Of a DNA stretch of 64,000 nucleotides, positions 11,021 to 19,019 are shown in pieces; positions within the stretch are counted from its first letter, which is position 1; every line of letters begins with the position of its first letter. The notes under the pieces were generated by a model. The model made no database searches and had not been told where the DNA came from. It worked only from the letters and a program-made list of their open reading frames with translations. Source of the DNA: Gammaproteobacteria bacterium (GTDB lineage Bacteria > Pseudomonadota > Gammaproteobacteria > Acidiferrobacterales > Sulfurifustaceae); the NCBI GenBank assembly GCA_029863005.1, contig JAOTWF010000006.1, positions 1 through 64,000 on the forward strand. Reading direction: 5' to 3'. The translations under genes and the position numbers were made by a program.

Positions 11021-11998
11021 TCAGGAAATGGTCTGGTAATAAATATTCTGCGGGTGATTGGCCTGAGCAAAGAAATACCAGCGCTCCGCCAGCAGTCCCA
11101 GGTACTGAATGACAAAGGCACTGGACAGCATCGGGACGCTGCGATCAACCATGCCGTTGAACAGCAGCACGAGCGGCACCGGAAATACCAGCACCAGGAA
11201 TACCCACTTGATCGAACGGAATAACCACGGTGCCGCACCGTGGAAGAAATCGCGCGTGTTGAACGATCCGCCCATGAAACCCTGGGACTTCTGCACGATG
11301 CGCGCGTGACGCACGCCGATCGCCGTCTGGATCGTGGACTTGTACTTGAGACGGCGGTTGCGGATGAGCGAGGCCGCGCGCGTCACCCAGACGGCAAGCG
11401 TGATGATCACGGTCCAGGCGCCAAAAAAGTAAACCAGGGCCGGCGCCTGGTACGCGGCATAGGCCGTCGCGAGCAGGAATCCCGAGGCCAGTCCGAATAG
11501 CGTGTAATTCACCACTGTCAGCCAACTCGCCCATTCCTGCAGAAATTTGATGCACGCGTAGATCATGCCGGTGCACAGAAACAGCAAGAACGCCAGCGCG
11601 ACCGCGGCAGCACCCACGACGAGCGCCAGGTCACCGTCTACGCTGGTGGCAAAGCCTAAATCTTTCAGCCGCAGATTGAGATGATGTACCACACCATAGA
11701 CAGCCACGGCACCCATCAGGGCCGGCAGCACAATGACTTCGCGCGACAGCCACGAGGTGCGCCAACGCGCCGCCGAGCGCCAGGCTCGCTCCGGGTGACC
11801 GAGGTGAAAGAACGACGCCACCAGTCCGCCGATTAGCAGTGCCAAGGCGATAGCGCTGCCCTGCACATAGAAATGGCTCGGCGGTACTGGCAGAAGCTCG
11901 ACAGTCGAGTAGACCTGCGCCGTATAGAGGGCCAGAAACAAGCCCTGGCCGGCGCCGATCAGCGTTGTCAGAAAGATGACCGAGAAGGCAGGATGCAT
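11021..11998 (-). CDS. soeC: Membrane anchor subunit of sulfite dehydrogenase (NrfD/DmsC type)
   Basis: A 325-residue integral membrane protein with eight to nine predicted helices, probably anchoring SoeAB to the inner membrane and passing electrons to quinone. It begins MHPAFSVIFLTTLIGAGQGL, a start typical of DmsC-type anchors, and has conserved HLGHPERAWR in the second loop. It follows soeB by 18 bases on the same strand. The three-gene order catalytic-FeS-anchor without a Tat signal fits SoeABC of purple sulfur bacteria better than DMSO reductase. The DmsC-family assignment is firm; the substrate is inferred from the whole operon. Confidence 0.82.
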   Translation of the reverse strand: MHPAFSVIFLTTLIGAGQGLFLALYTAQVYSTVELLPVPPSHFYVQGSAIALALLIGGLVASFFHLGHPERAWRSAARWRTSWLSREVIVLPALMGAVAVYGVVHHLNLRLKDLGFATSVDGDLALVVGAAAVALAFLLFLCTGMIYACIKFLQEWASWLTVVNYTLFGLASGFLLATAYAAYQAPALVYFFGAWTVIITLAVWVTRAASLIRNRRLKYKSTIQTAIGVRHARIVQKSQGFMGGSFNTRDFFHGAAPWLFRSIKWVFLVLVFPVPLVLLFNGMVDRSVPMLSSAFVIQYLGLLAERWYFFAQANHPQNIYYQTIS

Positions 11999-12016: not shown

Positions 12017-12748
12017 CTACCAACTCGTGACGTCATCAAGCGACGGCTCATGCACATCCGGCTTGGGCCGAACACCCTCTTTCTTGAGAGGGTTGTCGGC
12101 ACGCATCAGCTCATCGTCGTGGATCTTGATGCGTGTCTTGCGGCGCGGCAGGTAATGGTTGGCCGGCTTGGTGCCCCACTCCGGCATGAGCGCATAACCC
12201 CCGTTCTCGCTGATCGCCACCGATACCTCGGAATCGGGATCGTGCACGTCACCGAACAGGCGCGCATTCGTCGGGCAGGCCATGACGCAAGCGGGCTTGC
12301 GCTCCGCCTGCGGCAATGACTTATCGTAAATGCGGTCGACGCACAGAGTGCATTTCTTCATGACTTTCTGGTGCTCGTCGATCTCGCGCACGCCATAGGG
12401 GCAGGCCCACGCGCAATATTTGCAGCCGATGCACTTGTCGTAATCGACCAGCACGATGCCGTCTTCCGGACGCTTGTAACTCGCCCCGGTGGGACACACC
12501 GGAACGCACGGCGGATCCTCGCAGTGCAGGCAGGACTTCGGGAAATGCACGGTTTCGGTATTCGGGAATTCCCCCACCTCAAAAGTCTGCACCCGATTGA
12601 AGAAGTTGCCGGTCGGATCTTCACCGTACGGACGGTCATCGGACATGTAGCCAGCCTCGCCCGAGGTGTTCCATTCCTTGCAGCTGGTGACACAGGCGTG
12701 GCAGCCGACACAAACATTGAGGTCGATGACTAAGGCGAGCTGGATCAT
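12017..12748 (-). CDS. soeB: Four-cluster ferredoxin subunit of sulfite dehydrogenase
   Basis: A 243-residue electron-transfer subunit of the DmsB/PhsB/SoeB type. Four [4Fe-4S] cysteine groups are visible: CVGCHACVTSC near residue 12, CLHCEDPPCVPVCP, CIGCKYCAWACP, and CTLC paired with CVMACP. It would carry electrons from the molybdenum site of SoeA to SoeC. No Tat or Sec signal is present, consistent with a cytoplasmic complex. The ATG lies one base after the soeA stop, so the two are co-translated. The C-terminal tail (from about residue 200) is charged and has no cluster ligands. Confidence 0.86.
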   Translation of the reverse strand: MIQLALVIDLNVCVGCHACVTSCKEWNTSGEAGYMSDDRPYGEDPTGNFFNRVQTFEVGEFPNTETVHFPKSCLHCEDPPCVPVCPTGASYKRPEDGIVLVDYDKCIGCKYCAWACPYGVREIDEHQKVMKKCTLCVDRIYDKSLPQAERKPACVMACPTNARLFGDVHDPDSEVSVAISENGGYALMPEWGTKPANHYLPRRKTRIKIHDDELMRADNPLKKEGVRPKPDVHEPSLDDVTSW

Positions 12749-12749
12749 G

Positions 12750-15629
12750 TCAGGTTCCCATGAGCTTGCCGGTCACATAGGCCAGCCAGTTTTTATGGCG
12801 TGTCGGTTCACCGGGCACCGGTGAAAGCGTGTCAAACTGCGGCGAGGAAACCTGTTCTTCGTCCGGACCGGCCTTGACCAGGCACACCCGTACGTCATAC
12901 CAGCCGGCCTGCCCGGTGACTGGATCGGAGTTGGAGAGATACTCGCCCTCCGGCTGCGGCGGGAGTTCCTCGGAGATCAGATGGTTGAGCAAAAAACCCT
13001 TACGCGCTTCGTTCGCGCGCGGTTCGAGATTCCACGCGCCGGGTTGCTTGCCGATGGCATTCCAGGTCCAGACTGTACCCGGCTCGGTGGCTTCACTGTA
13101 GCGGCACATGCCACGCACCTTGCCCCAAGGCGACTCTACCCACACCCAGTTGCCGTCGTCGATGCCCTCGGCAGCGGCGGTTTTTGGATTGACGAACAGG
13201 TAATTGTGCGTGTGAATCTGGCGTAGCCAGGCGTTCTGCGAATCCCAAGAGTGATACATGGCCATCGGCCTTTGTGTCACCGCATTGAGTGGATATTTCC
13301 GCTTATCGGTAAGCTGCGATTCAAGCGGTTCATAGTAAAACGGCAGCGGGTCGAAGTAGGTCTCGATGCGTCGGCGCAGATGCGCCGGCGGTTGCTTGCC
13401 CTGGGTCTTTCCCTGCGCGGCAAGACGGAACTGCTGCAGAATATCGGAATAGATATGGATCAGAATCGGCTCGGCGTAGCGCGTCAGACGGTGACGTTGC
13501 GCCCATTCGAGATAACCCTTGTTCCAGTTGCGCATGTATTGATAAGACTTGGGCAACACATGGTGGTAAAGGCAGTTGTTTTTGGCGTACATCTCCCACT
13601 GGTTCGGGTTGGGCTCGCCTTTCATGAATTTCTCGCCGCCCTTGCCGCGCCAGCCGGCGAGAAACCCAATGCCCGAGCCCGGCTCAATTTCATAGTTGAT
13701 GATGAAATCCGGGTAATTTTTAAACTTGCGCTGCCCGCGCGTATCGACGAATGCCGGGAATTTGAGACGCGAGCCGAGCTCGATCAGCACGTCCTGGAAT
13801 GGCTTGCACTCTCCCTTGGGCGGGACCACCGGAATGCGGACGGAATCCATCGGGCCGTCGAATTCGGATACCGGCCGATCGAGCATGCTCATGACGTCGT
13901 GCCGCTCCAGATAAGTAGTGTCCGGAAGCACGAGGTCAGCGTACGCCACCATTTCTGACTGGAATGCATCGCACACGACGATGAACGGAATTTTAAATTC
14001 TCCGTTCCCGTCCTTGTCGTTCAGCATTTTACGCACCTCGACCGTGTTCATGGTCGAGTTCCAGGCCATGTTGGCCATGAAGATCATCAGCGTATCGATC
14101 TTGTAGGGGTCACCGCGCCAGGCGTTGGTGATGACATTGTGCATCAGACCGTGCACCGACAGCGGGTACTCCCAGGAGAAGGCCTTGTCGATGCGCACCG
14201 GCGTGCCTTCCTTGTCGACGAACAAATCATCAGGATCGGCCGGCCAGCCGAGCGCCAAGCCGTCCAGCGGTTTGTTCGGTTGTACCGCTTCAGGACCCTT
14301 GGGGGTCTTGGCGCAGGGCGGGATCGGGCGCGGGAACGGTGCCTTGTGGCGAAAGCCACCCGGCCGATCAATGGTGCCGAGAATGCTCATTAATATAGAA
14401 AGCGCGCGGATGGTGTGAAAACCGTTGGAATGCGCGGCCAGCCCCCGCATGGCATGGAAGGCCACGGGGTTACCGGTCACGGTCTCATGGTCCTTGCCCC
14501 AGATGTCGGTCCAGGCGATCGGCAACTCGATTTTCTGGTCACGCGCCGTGACACCCATTTCATTTGCCAGCCGCCGTATGGTTTCCGCCGGGATACCGGT
14601 GATCTTGCTCGCCCACTCGGGCGTGTAATCCTTGACGCGATCCACCAACAGCTGGAATGACGGTTTTACCTTGGTTCCATCCGGCAATGCGAACTCGCCG
14701 AGCAGAAATGGGTCGACCCCTGGCGTGTGCGTGATCACGGCCTTGTTGCTTAGGCGGTCCCACCACAACTTGTTTTGCGGATCGAAACAGCCTTCCTCCT
14801 CCGGCACTTCGGCGCGCACGAACATGCCATGCTCGCTCGAATCCTTGGACATGTTCACCAGTTGTGCGGCATTGGTGTATTGCACCAGGAAATCGCGATC
14901 GTACAGGCCCTGCTTGATGAGCGTATGAATGAACGCGAGAAACAATGCGCCGTCAGTGCCAGGCTTGATCGGCACCCATTCATCCGCAATCGCCGAGTAG
15001 CCGGTGCGAACCGGGTTCACGGAGATGAACTTACCGCCGTTGCGCTTGAACTTGGAGATGGCGATCTTGAGCGGATTGGAGTGATGATCCTCAGCGGTGC
15101 CAATCATGACAAACAGCTTGGCGCGGTCGAGATCCGGCCCGCCGAATTCCCAGAACGAACCGCCGATGGTGTAGATCATGCCCGCGGCCATGTTGACCGA
15201 GCAGAAGCCGCCATGTGCCGCATAGTTGGGTGTTCCGAACTGCCGGGCAAACAGGCCGGTGAGCGCCTGCATCTGGTCGCGGCCAGTGAACAAAGCGAAT
15301 TTTTTCGGATCGGTGGCGCGGATATTCCCGAGACGCTCTTCCAGCAGGGCGAAGGCCTCATCCCAGGAAATTGCCTCGAAGGCGTTGGCACCACGCTCGG
15401 CTCCGGCCTTGCGCTTGAGCGGCCGGGTCAGGCGCGCGGGAGAATGCTGCTTCATGATGCCCGAGGCGCCCTTGGCGCAGATCACACCCTTATTGATGGG
15501 ATGATCGGGATTGCCTTCAAGGTAACGCACCTCGCCGTCCTTGAGCGTCACGCGGATCCCGCAGCGGCAGGCACACATGTAACAGGTCGTGTTCATGGTC
15601 TCGCGGCGGCCAGCAGAGGTTTGGGTCAT
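12750..15629 (-). CDS. soeA: Cytoplasmic molybdopterin oxidoreductase, sulfite dehydrogenase catalytic subunit
   Basis: A 959-residue member of the DMSO-reductase family, probably oxidising sulfite to sulfate on the cytoplasmic side. The N-terminal [4Fe-4S] site is C16-x2-C19-x3-C23-x27-C51, and C143 in GGFCSVN is the likely molybdenum ligand. The C-terminal molydopterin-dinucleotide-binding domain starts near residue 780 (YPLNAVTQRPMAMYHS). No twin-arginine signal is present from the ATG at 15629 or from the internal ATG at 15596 (MNTTCYMC), which argues against a periplasmic reductase. soeB and soeC follow directly. Thiosulfate or polysulfide reductase are alternatives, but those usually carry a Tat signal. 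Subfamily choice is inference from signal, operon and the neighbouring SQR-like gene. Confidence 0.82.
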   Translation of the reverse strand: MTQTSAGRRETMNTTCYMCACRCGIRVTLKDGEVRYLEGNPDHPINKGVICAKGASGIMKQHSPARLTRPLKRKAGAERGANAFEAISWDEAFALLEERLGNIRATDPKKFALFTGRDQMQALTGLFARQFGTPNYAAHGGFCSVNMAAGMIYTIGGSFWEFGGPDLDRAKLFVMIGTAEDHHSNPLKIAISKFKRNGGKFISVNPVRTGYSAIADEWVPIKPGTDGALFLAFIHTLIKQGLYDRDFLVQYTNAAQLVNMSKDSSEHGMFVRAEVPEEEGCFDPQNKLWWDRLSNKAVITHTPGVDPFLLGEFALPDGTKVKPSFQLLVDRVKDYTPEWASKITGIPAETIRRLANEMGVTARDQKIELPIAWTDIWGKDHETVTGNPVAFHAMRGLAAHSNGFHTIRALSILMSILGTIDRPGGFRHKAPFPRPIPPCAKTPKGPEAVQPNKPLDGLALGWPADPDDLFVDKEGTPVRIDKAFSWEYPLSVHGLMHNVITNAWRGDPYKIDTLMIFMANMAWNSTMNTVEVRKMLNDKDGNGEFKIPFIVVCDAFQSEMVAYADLVLPDTTYLERHDVMSMLDRPVSEFDGPMDSVRIPVVPPKGECKPFQDVLIELGSRLKFPAFVDTRGQRKFKNYPDFIINYEIEPGSGIGFLAGWRGKGGEKFMKGEPNPNQWEMYAKNNCLYHHVLPKSYQYMRNWNKGYLEWAQRHRLTRYAEPILIHIYSDILQQFRLAAQGKTQGKQPPAHLRRRIETYFDPLPFYYEPLESQLTDKRKYPLNAVTQRPMAMYHSWDSQNAWLRQIHTHNYLFVNPKTAAAEGIDDGNWVWVESPWGKVRGMCRYSEATEPGTVWTWNAIGKQPGAWNLEPRANEARKGFLLNHLISEELPPQPEGEYLSNSDPVTGQAGWYDVRVCLVKAGPDEEQVSSPQFDTLSPVPGEPTRHKNWLAYVTGKLMGT

Positions 15630-15859: not shown

Positions 15860-15936
15860 TGGTGGCTAGGGGCGGAATCGAACCGCCGACCTCAGCATTA
15901 TGAGTGCCGCGCTCTAACCGTCTGAGCTACCTAGCC
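15860..15936 (-). tRNA. tRNA-Met (anticodon CAT)
   Basis: The reverse strand gives a complete cloverleaf of 77 bases: acceptor GGCTAGG pairing with CCTAGCC, D-arm GCTCAG...GAGC, anticodon loop CTCATAA (CAT), T-arm GGCGGTTCGATTCCGCC, and encoded CCA. The GGCTA...TAGCC acceptor, the D-arm and the overall sequence resemble elongator tRNA-Met. A tRNA-Ile with a lysidine-modified CAT anticodon is less likely but cannot be excluded by eye. Confidence 0.9.
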
Positions 15937-16082: not shown

Positions 16083-17744
16083 TCAGTCTGCGAACAACCG
16101 CACCAGATCGCCGCGGGTGATGATTCCCTGGATGCGGCGCTCGTCGTTGATCACGATCAGTTGCTTGATCCGGTCTGTCTCCATGCGTTCGATGGCGGTC
16201 TCAAGCGTGTCCTCCGCGCGCAGCGTGATCGGATGAGACGTCATGAGATCGTCCACGATCGTGCCCATGGACTTTTTGCGGCGCGGATGATGCACGTCGA
16301 GCGCCGATAGAAAATCCGCTTCGGTGAGCATGCCAACGAGCCGCTCATCGACGTCCACGACCGGCAGTCCGCTCACATGGTATTTCGTCAGCAATGTAGC
16401 CGCCTCGGACAGCGGTCGCCCTTGCTGGATGGAAATGACCTTCTTGACCATGAAGTTTTTCACCGGCGTACTGTGCGCGCGTCGTACCTGCGCCGCGCGC
16501 GTGATGTCCTTGCCGAGAAAACTCATGTGCGCGGTCAGCAGTGGCATGCGCGACAGCCGTCCAGGCAGGAGCAGGTTCCAGTAGGCCCACTTGAACAGAA
16601 TCTTTCCCCAGTGATTGAGATAGCTTTCCTGCAGCAGTGAGAGCGGCCCGATCCAAGGCAACGGGAACTTCCCCGGGAGCGGTTCGACGTCGTAGTTGAA
16701 GTCGAGCAACATTGCCTTGTGATGCCCAGTTTCAACGAAGCAGTTGGCATGCCCGTCGAACGAGGCCAAGGGCTTGCGCCCGTCCATTTCCCGCAGCAGA
16801 TTTTCGACCAGCGTCTCAGCCTCGAAGTGCGCCACAGAGCCGGCCTTAGATGTGGCGACATTGGAATTGTCTCCGATGACGTAGACGTGCTCGTCCTTGC
16901 GGCTCTTGAGTGTGCGGGGATCGGTGAGCGCATAGCCGCTTTCGTCCGCGAGGCCGGCGTCGGTAAGCACCGACGGGCCGAGGTTGGGCGGGATCATACA
17001 CAGCAGATCGTAGCCTACACTTTTCCCTTCGAAGGAATGCAGGGTATTGGTTTGCGCATCCAACCGCTCGACGGTGAAATCGGTGACGATTTCGATTCCC
17101 TTGCGGCGAGCAACGTCGGTCAGGATTTCGCTCGCCACCGGCTTGGTGAAAGCGCCCGATAACGGTGTGACCAGCGTAATGCTGATCCGGTCGCGCCGGC
17201 CCAGACGCTGATAGTAATAGTCGGCCAGAAACACAAACTCGATCGGCGCCACCGGGCACTTGATGGGCATGTCGGCGATGTTGAGCACCAGCCGGCCACG
17301 ATCCAGGTCCGCCAGCGCCTGTTGCATGCGCAGTGCACCATCGACGGAATAAAAGGTGTGTGCGCCACCGCTGTCCATCGCGGTAGAAAGCCCGTCGATT
17401 TCCCCAGTGCCCAGACGGCAGCCTAGCGCCAGCACCAGCCAGTCGTATTCGAGCGTCTCGCCGCTGGTTTGCACCCGGCGCGCGGCAGTGTCGATTGACT
17501 CGACTTCGGCCTGGATGAATCGGGCGTTCCGCGGCAGTGGATCGCGGATCGGGCGTGTGATGTGTTCGCGGCGCTCATAGCCGTAAAGGCGGAACGGCAG
17601 AAACAACATGCCCGGCTGGTAGACGTGCTCAGTCGCGCGGTCCACGACAGTGATCGCCCACTCGTCGCGGGCCAGCTTGCTCGACAGCATGTTGGCAATG
17701 AGCGCGCCGGCAGTACCAGCACCGAGGATCAAGATTTTTTTCAT
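16083..17744 (-). CDS. Sulfide:quinone-oxidoreductase-like flavoprotein fused to a CBS-domain pair
   Basis: A 553-residue two-part protein. Residues 1-415 resemble SQR/flavocytochrome-c sulfide dehydrogenase flavoproteins: FAD-binding GAGTAGA near residue 8, GDNSNV near 293, and cysteines at 109, 163 (IKCPVAP), 249 and 335 (NCFVETG). Those at 163 and 335 match the usual SQR catalytic pair. A hydrophobic and aromatic stretch (about 358-400) could bind the membrane. Residues 427-553 form two CBS domains (VKNFMVKKVISI...; VDDLMTSHPITL...), usually adenosine-nucleotide sensors. The ATG at 17744 has GGAGGGG upstream; an ATG at 17765 lies before that site. It is downstream-strand neighbour of soeABC across tRNA-Met. 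SQR-type activity and CBS regulation of it are inferred. Confidence 0.8.
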   Translation of the reverse strand: MKKILILGAGTAGALIANMLSSKLARDEWAITVVDRATEHVYQPGMLFLPFRLYGYERREHITRPIRDPLPRNARFIQAEVESIDTAARRVQTSGETLEYDWLVLALGCRLGTGEIDGLSTAMDSGGAHTFYSVDGALRMQQALADLDRGRLVLNIADMPIKCPVAPIEFVFLADYYYQRLGRRDRISITLVTPLSGAFTKPVASEILTDVARRKGIEIVTDFTVERLDAQTNTLHSFEGKSVGYDLLCMIPPNLGPSVLTDAGLADESGYALTDPRTLKSRKDEHVYVIGDNSNVATSKAGSVAHFEAETLVENLLREMDGRKPLASFDGHANCFVETGHHKAMLLDFNYDVEPLPGKFPLPWIGPLSLLQESYLNHWGKILFKWAYWNLLLPGRLSRMPLLTAHMSFLGKDITRAAQVRRAHSTPVKNFMVKKVISIQQGRPLSEAATLLTKYHVSGLPVVDVDERLVGMLTEADFLSALDVHHPRRKKSMGTIVDDLMTSHPITLRAEDTLETAIERMETDRIKQLIVINDERRIQGIITRGDLVRLFAD

Positions 17745-17927
17745 GGGCAATCCCCTCCGCCTCATGGAGCAAGATATTTATGATACGCCCGAGCAATAAG
17801 GGAATTCCTGATACAGGTCAAATGCCGCGGCGCGCGCGCAGAAGACGCCACTAAACATCGATAATTATAAAATATATGCCCTTGCGATCATTGCGCCTTC
17901 ATAGCGAGTCCGCACGTATCGACACTT

Positions 17928-19019
17928 TTAAACATTGAAGCGGAAGTGCATGACATCGCCGTCGTGAACGACGTAATCCTTTCCTTCGAGACGCAGCTTC
18001 CCGGCTTCACGCGCACCGTGTTCGCCCCGGTAGTGGACGTAGTCTGCATAGGATACGGTTTCGGCACGGATGAACCCGCGTTCGAAATCGGTGTGGATCA
18101 CGCCCGCGGCCTGGGGCGCGTGTGCTCCCCGGCGTACGGTCCACGCCCGCACTTCCTTGGGGCCGGCGGTAAAAAACGTTTGCAGCCCGAGCAATTGGTA
18201 ACCACCGCGGATGACACGGTTCAAACCCGGTTCCTTGAGTCCCATGTCAGCCAGGAAGACCTGTTTTTCTTCAGCGTTCATGTCAGCCAGTTCCGCCTCG
18301 ATCCGGGCGCAAATCGGCACCACCACGGAATTCTCCGAAAGCGCGAGCTTTTCCACCTGATCGAGATAGGGATTGTGGCTGAATCCCTTTTCATTCACAT
18401 TGGCAATATACATGAGCGGCTTATCGGTCAGCAGGCACAGCGGTATTAACAGATTATGCTCTTCTTCACTCAACCCCATGCTACGCACCGGTTTGCCGCC
18501 GTTCAGATGCTGGTGCACACGGACAAGCAGCTCACGCAGCTTGATATCATCCTTGCTGCCGCTTTTGGCAGTCTTGTCGGTGCGCTTCACACCCTTGTCG
18601 ACGGCCTCCAGATCGGCGAGTGCGAGTTCGGTATTAATAGTTTCGATGTCCGTGAGCGGATTGATTTTTCCCGAGACGTGCACAATGTTCTCGTCCTCGA
18701 AACAGCGCACGACATGCGCAATCGCATCCACCTCGCGAATATGGGCAAGAAACTTGTTTCCAAGCCCCTCGCCTTTTGAGGCACCAGCCACCAGCCCCGC
18801 GATATCGACGAATTCAATCGTGGTCGGGAGAATTTTTTCAGGTTTGGCGATATCAGCGAGGGTTTGCAGGCGCGGGTCCGGCACCTCGACAATCCCGACA
18901 TTCGGATCGATCGTGCAGAACGGATAGTTCTCCGCTGCGATACCTGCCTTGGTCAGCGCGTTGAACAACGTGGATTTGCCGACGTTCGGCAGGCCGACAA
19001 TGCCGCATTTGAAACCCAT
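17928..19019 (-). CDS. ychF: Ribosome-binding ATPase YchF
   Basis: A 363-residue Obg-related P-loop ATPase that prefers ATP over GTP and binds ribosomes, with roles in stress responses. The P-loop GLPNVGKST is near residue 8, [20 protein letters not shown] is the G3 region, and the C-terminal TGS domain (about 280-363, [18 protein letters not shown]) is complete. In this family NVNE takes the place of the NKxD guanine-specificity motif. It follows pth by 13 bases, the standard pth-ychF pairing. Confidence 0.97.

Follow-up and report, generated by a model that had tools for sequence, protein, structure and literature searches.

The window, a stretch of 64,000 nucleotides, encodes a putative type III sulfide:quinone oxidoreductase (SQR) with a pair of CBS domains at its C-terminus (Table 1). 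Both parts are well known and the front part falls within the type III family by sequence; what is new is the CBS tail on such an SQR, whose activity is predicted. According to the comparison of homologous loci, the fusion is real and old and has arisen once. In our preferred reading, which has about an even chance of being correct, SQR-CBS is a membrane-associated, cytoplasm-facing type III SQR to which an adenine-nucleotide-responsive Bateman module was joined a single time. A search of the open-access literature, with most subscription papers lying outside it, retrieved no paper on a CBS-tailed SQR, which agrees with the sequence-only reading, whose author knew of no such tail on any characterised SQR.

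The gene was already described as an open frame at this place, and it is located on the minus strand, which the earlier description had left unstated. Its 553 codons contain no internal stop, and the plus-strand frame across the same interval is interrupted by several stops. A further in-frame ATG at 17765 would extend the protein by seven amino acids. The protein contains four cysteines, at residues 109, 163, 249 and 335.

Table 1 Features of the window and genes adjoining fused copies at other loci
Feature	Position	Strand	Size and evidence
SQR-CBS fusion gene (type III SQR)	16083..17744	minus	one ORF, 553 aa, ATG start at 17744
SQR part, residues 1-412	16509..17744	minus	NF049943 residues 2-412; fold match to SQOR; catalytic and motif residues
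Two CBS domains (Bateman module), residues 426-552	16089..16469	minus	Pfam PF00571, two stretches, 96 bits
SoeA-like molybdopterin subunit of sulfite dehydrogenase	12750..15602	minus	950 aa; Pfam Molybdopterin/Fe4S4/Molydop_binding
SoeB-like 4Fe-4S subunit	12017..12748	minus	243 aa; Pfam; 93% to G006 copy
SoeC-like membrane anchor	11021..11998	minus	325 aa; Pfam DmsC; 80% to G006 copy
ychF, upstream flank of insertion	17928..19019	minus	comparison with relatives
tRNA-Met (CAT), just downstream of SQR-CBS gene	15860..15936	minus	ARAGORN; marks insertion site
COQ10/RatA-like START genes	L012:4305-4736, L037:8745-9203, L098:3850-4332, L099:7606-8076, L100:5395-5856		
UbiA-family genes	L037:9881-10744, L098:2303-3976, L099:5926-6774, L101:3529-4485		

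The assignment of the front part to the type III SQRs (NF049943; SqrC; the SQR of Caldivirga maquilingensis) is supported at the family level, and sulfide:quinone activity is predicted from shared features: the cysteine pair, the FAD motifs and the C-terminal helices. A domain search with Pfam identified Pyr_redox_2 together with the two CBS domains (E 1.6e-27), and NCBIfam identified the type III sulfide:quinone reductase model of the selenoprotein subtype (NF049943) with 539.5 bits against a cut-off of 525. The fused relatives L009 and L037 reached 565 and 560 bits, respectively. The closest solved structure by sequence was human mitochondrial SQOR (E 1e-40), a type II enzyme which is about 24% identical to the SQR part and has no CBS tail. 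An AlphaFold2 model of the whole protein, based on an alignment of 37 window and locus proteins (mean pLDDT 87.7), likewise resembled human SQOR most closely (8dhk; Z 48.3, rmsd 2.4 Å over 395 residues), with lower Z values for flavocytochrome c and type I SQR (40-41) and for NDH-2 (36).

The FAD motifs and the catalytic cysteines proposed from the sequence were found at the expected residues: a GxGxxG motif at 8-13, KCPVAP with Cys163, GD at 291-292 and HANCF with Cys335. Cys163 and Cys335 are kept in all of the approximately 85 type III relatives among the matches listed, and equivalents occur also in four paralogues that are more distant (L002, L003, L090 and L091); the FccB-like protein L004 deviates at the second cysteine site. 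Selenoprotein members of the type III SQRs hold selenocysteine in an HxxU motif (PMC13188914). Since this motif aligns in our alignment with the HANC of Cys335, a catalytic role of the latter is supported. The C-terminal helix at 375-392 carries Trp386 and Trp389 and is, by analogy, the predicted quinone-holding region; in other SQRs the quinone is held near the C-terminal helix (PMC9666304). In a type III SQR, both membrane binding and activity depend on the C-terminal helices, as the work is summarised by a citing paper (Lencina 2020, cited in PMC9666304).

Unfused type III SQRs end at about residue 408-421, whereas in the fused clade the chain continues for about 140 residues that contain the two CBS domains. 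They also differ at residues specific to the fused clade, namely Cys109, which is invariant there and rare among unfused type III SQRs, and GD(N) at 291-293 in place of GD(A). The fused clade shares invariant Pro253 and Pro257 as well, and of the fused copies checked L037 alone lacks Cys249. Such a set of private residues (Cys109, GDN, Pro253, Pro257), in a family whose members are little characterised, would suit a related flavoenzyme with two dinucleotide-binding folds that is not an SQR and uses another sulfur substrate or acceptor. This is very unlikely, given that the curated type III cut-off was exceeded, that Cys163, Cys335 and the C-terminal aromatic residues are kept, and that genes of quinone type (COQ10-like START, UbiA family) adjoin fused copies elsewhere. 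Neither a position outside SQR and FCSD nor a loss of the cysteines, named beforehand as evidence against a role in sulfide oxidation, was seen.

In a phylogenetic reconstruction with human type II SQR and the type I SQR of Acidithiobacillus ferrooxidans as references, SQR-CBS grouped with the unfused type III SQRs, apart from the single type I SQR, FccB and the host paralogues. Of types I-VI and FccB, named for comparison in the sequence-only reading, the tree covered types I-III and FccB; human type II was positioned on a long branch beside type III. With a GxGxxG motif that begins as early as residue 8, the N-terminus is too short for a signal peptide. Lack of a leader is consistent with a protein facing the cytoplasm, a location that was likewise argued for the type III SQRs of cable bacteria (PMC13047784). 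An identity as FccB was rejected based on the leaderless FAD motif at residue 8 and on the neighbouring genes ychF and tRNA-Met, with no gene for a partner cytochrome. Separately from SQR-CBS, the host encodes an FccB-like protein (L004, G000:C26:31395-32390) whose N-terminus resembles a leader. Two other SQR-like genes of the host, L002 (G000:C125:8253-9380) and L003 (G000:C94:2103-3215), are both more distant, and the closest solved structure for L002 is the type I SQR of A. ferrooxidans.

Thirteen further distinct sequences show this full-length architecture, with 55-61% identity over the entire length, and they span different orders and a second class; the layout is therefore far beyond chance. 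A scan of 84,980 species genomes yielded at least eight fused loci (L009-L015, L037) and at least 72 unfused loci, and whole-genome searches added the fused loci L089, L092, L093, L094 and L096. A frameshift or an assembly error joining two genes, the artefact that might have been suspected behind the fusion, has a precedent in L037, where the frame is broken in the linker between SQR and CBS (L037:8272-8290), through either misassembly or a genuine split of the gene. For the window this explanation is next to negligible and was rejected: the frame is unbroken and 12 of the 13 other sequences are encoded in one open frame. All 14 fused sequences form one clade with full support (100/99 with 96 rows, 100/100 with 37 rows), which indicates that the fusion arose once, and the copy in the window is the deepest branch at the base of this clade. 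Unfused type III members from many phyla are 45-52% identical to the SQR part among the matches listed. A CBS gene beside unfused SQRs was rejected as the source of the tail, as only two distant matches, about 5 kb away, were found. The fusion is rare and patchy. It occurs in four of 369 genomes of the class, the own genome included (about 1%), and, apart from the own genome, in one of 398 genomes of the phylum, a member of a different class. None of eight congeners has the fused gene, and no fused match was found in 72,556 plasmids, so plasmid carriage was not seen.

In other proteins, CBS domains usually bind adenosine compounds, e.g. AMP or ATP. The CBS pair recognised earlier in the C-terminal region begins directly after the C-terminal helices of the SQR part and contains the putative ligand motifs GMLTEAD (Asp477) and GIITRGD (Asp546), each with an [ST]xxD sequence (TEAD at 474-477 and TRGD at 543-546). 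Tandem CBS pairs with [ST]xxD are also present in IMP dehydrogenase, Mn-dependent pyrophosphatase, AMPK gamma and AcuB; unlike SQR-CBS, these proteins work on neither sulfide nor quinone. Both [ST]xxD motifs are kept in all ten aligned tails, which share 43-55% identity with the window copy. The glycines ahead of these motifs, like a GT-VDD-MT block before the second CBS domain, are invariant or nearly so, and the Met-Thr at the start of that domain is invariant. Judged by this conservation, the tail is under constraint. The window copy is the deepest branch and has approximately 14 residues fewer between the CBS domains than the other fused copies; both points count against the preferred reading. 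With phmmer, the tail matched the CBS-pair protein 3ddj (E 8e-20) among solved structures, and the nearest solved CBS pairs include AcuB (AMP/ADP/ATP, Ap4A), CBSX2 (AMP) and MJ0100 (MTA/SAM). In the model of the whole protein the tail has a pLDDT of about 71-94, apart from a disordered loop (483-499) that separates the two domains. A model of the tail by itself was poor (mean pLDDT 70.7; Foldseek E 1e-9, TM about 0.36), and the reading of the tail is hence restricted to its motifs.

The [ST]xxD motif fixes a ribose only, and CBS pairs bind SAM/MTA, ATP, Ap4A and others. With MJ0100 and AcuB among the nearest solved pairs, the tail might sense SAM/MTA, NADH, c-di-AMP or Ap4A and couple sulfide oxidation to the sulfur-amino-acid or stress state of the cell. 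The motif itself cannot tell these ligands apart and the genomic context points to none of them, and we regard this as unlikely. Some CBS pairs act in assembly only, a further point against the preferred reading, and CBS pairs commonly dimerise. The tail could accordingly be a Bateman module that is no sensor and sets the oligomeric state or the membrane contact of an otherwise ordinary type III SQR. Its position immediately behind the C-terminal helices would suit such a role, as would the need of type III SQR for its oligomer in membrane binding, according to the title of Lencina 2020 (cited in PMC9666304). It is nonetheless rather unlikely, since both [ST]xxD motifs and the glycines, needless for a purely structural part, persist in the ten tails at the low identity given above.

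In the preferred reading of a nucleotide-responsive SQR, sulfide would attack the disulfide or trisulfide that links Cys163 to Cys335, and the two cysteines would oxidise sulfide to polysulfide via FAD, from which the electrons would pass to a quinone near the C-terminal helices. Cytoplasmic AMP, ADP or ATP would bind to the tail, and the ligand-bound tail would raise or lower SQR activity or membrane binding. The tail could act on both, because it is placed at the C-terminal helices that both need. Binding of AMP or ATP by the tail with an effect on SQR activity, as suggested by the motifs, is its candidate function. If true, bacteria with SQR-CBS may tune sulfide oxidation to their energy state. 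This would reveal how a sulfur lithotroph keeps the inflow of electrons from a toxic substrate in balance with its demand for energy. In sulfide metabolism, cystathionine beta-synthase would then be joined by a second case in which CBS domains serve regulation. With a conserved SQR and a putative nucleotide-sensor module in one chain, adenylate control is testable directly with one purified protein. No report of adenylate allosteric control of sulfide oxidation was found in the open-access literature. The SQR-rhodanese and rhodanese-persulfide dioxygenase fusions likewise carry an extra domain on an enzyme of sulfide oxidation (PMC13047784); these add catalytic sulfur-transfer domains, whereas SQR-CBS adds a candidate sensor module.

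The host is a sulfur oxidiser, as deduced from the presence of dsrAB, aprA, soxB and soeABC-like genes. For Sulfuricaulis limicola, no sqr is listed (PMC5024460). In eight relatives (L140-L147), ychF is directly followed by tRNA-Met, mostly within 60-190 bp and with no SQR gene between them. The same site being empty in these relatives, the SQR-CBS gene was inserted at ychF/tRNA-Met. The order ychF/tRNA-Met/miaB is ancestral, and sulfur genes flank the tRNA on both sides, as if the site were an insertion hot spot. A foreign base composition was rejected: G+C (0.603) and GC3 (0.767) of the gene do not differ from those of its neighbours and give no sign of recent import, a sign which the empty site does provide. 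Past tRNA-Met, 480 bp downstream of the SQR-CBS gene, starts a trio of genes that was named Soe-like according to subunit make-up and context, not by a curated Soe model. A conserved operon with soeABC was rejected, as the trio is located beyond the tRNA, does not adjoin the other fused copies and occupies the same place in the congener G006 without an SQR gene. SQR-CBS and soeABC are neighbours through insertion at one place, though both serve sulfur oxidation.

Different neighbours accompany the fused gene elsewhere. A START/SRPBCC protein (PF03364) of about 150 residues is encoded directly downstream in five of the 13 other fused loci, in two of which its gene overlaps the stop of the fused SQR. 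These proteins scored far below the cut-off of the RatA-like model, and their closest solved match is 1t17, which we take to be the COQ10-like START protein of Caulobacter. In four loci, the fused SQR is followed a short way downstream by a gene of the UbiA prenyltransferase family; this gene is joined to a PNPOx-like domain in L098 and preceded by a rubrerythrin-like gene in L037 and L099. No START or UbiA homologue was present in 837 kb around the 72 unfused type III genes listed. Together, the START and UbiA neighbours point to a quinone-linked role for the fused clade. Neither partner is present in the window, and the sole START match in the host genome is an ordinary RatA/COQ10-like gene. 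A tentative extension to the whole fused clade, possible though doubtful, is a switch by energy charge, in which the tail would read AMP/ATP and gate the quinone site, with a dedicated COQ10-like START protein and a UbiA-family enzyme supplying the quinone in several members. Energy control of sulfide oxidation would in that case be direct and allosteric. NiFe hydrogenase subunit genes are located near two fused copies (L009:2343-5341, L013:2215-4924). NqrA- and NqrB-like genes along with further matching genes adjoin the fused SQR at L099:10312-16194, and matching genes are present in L037.
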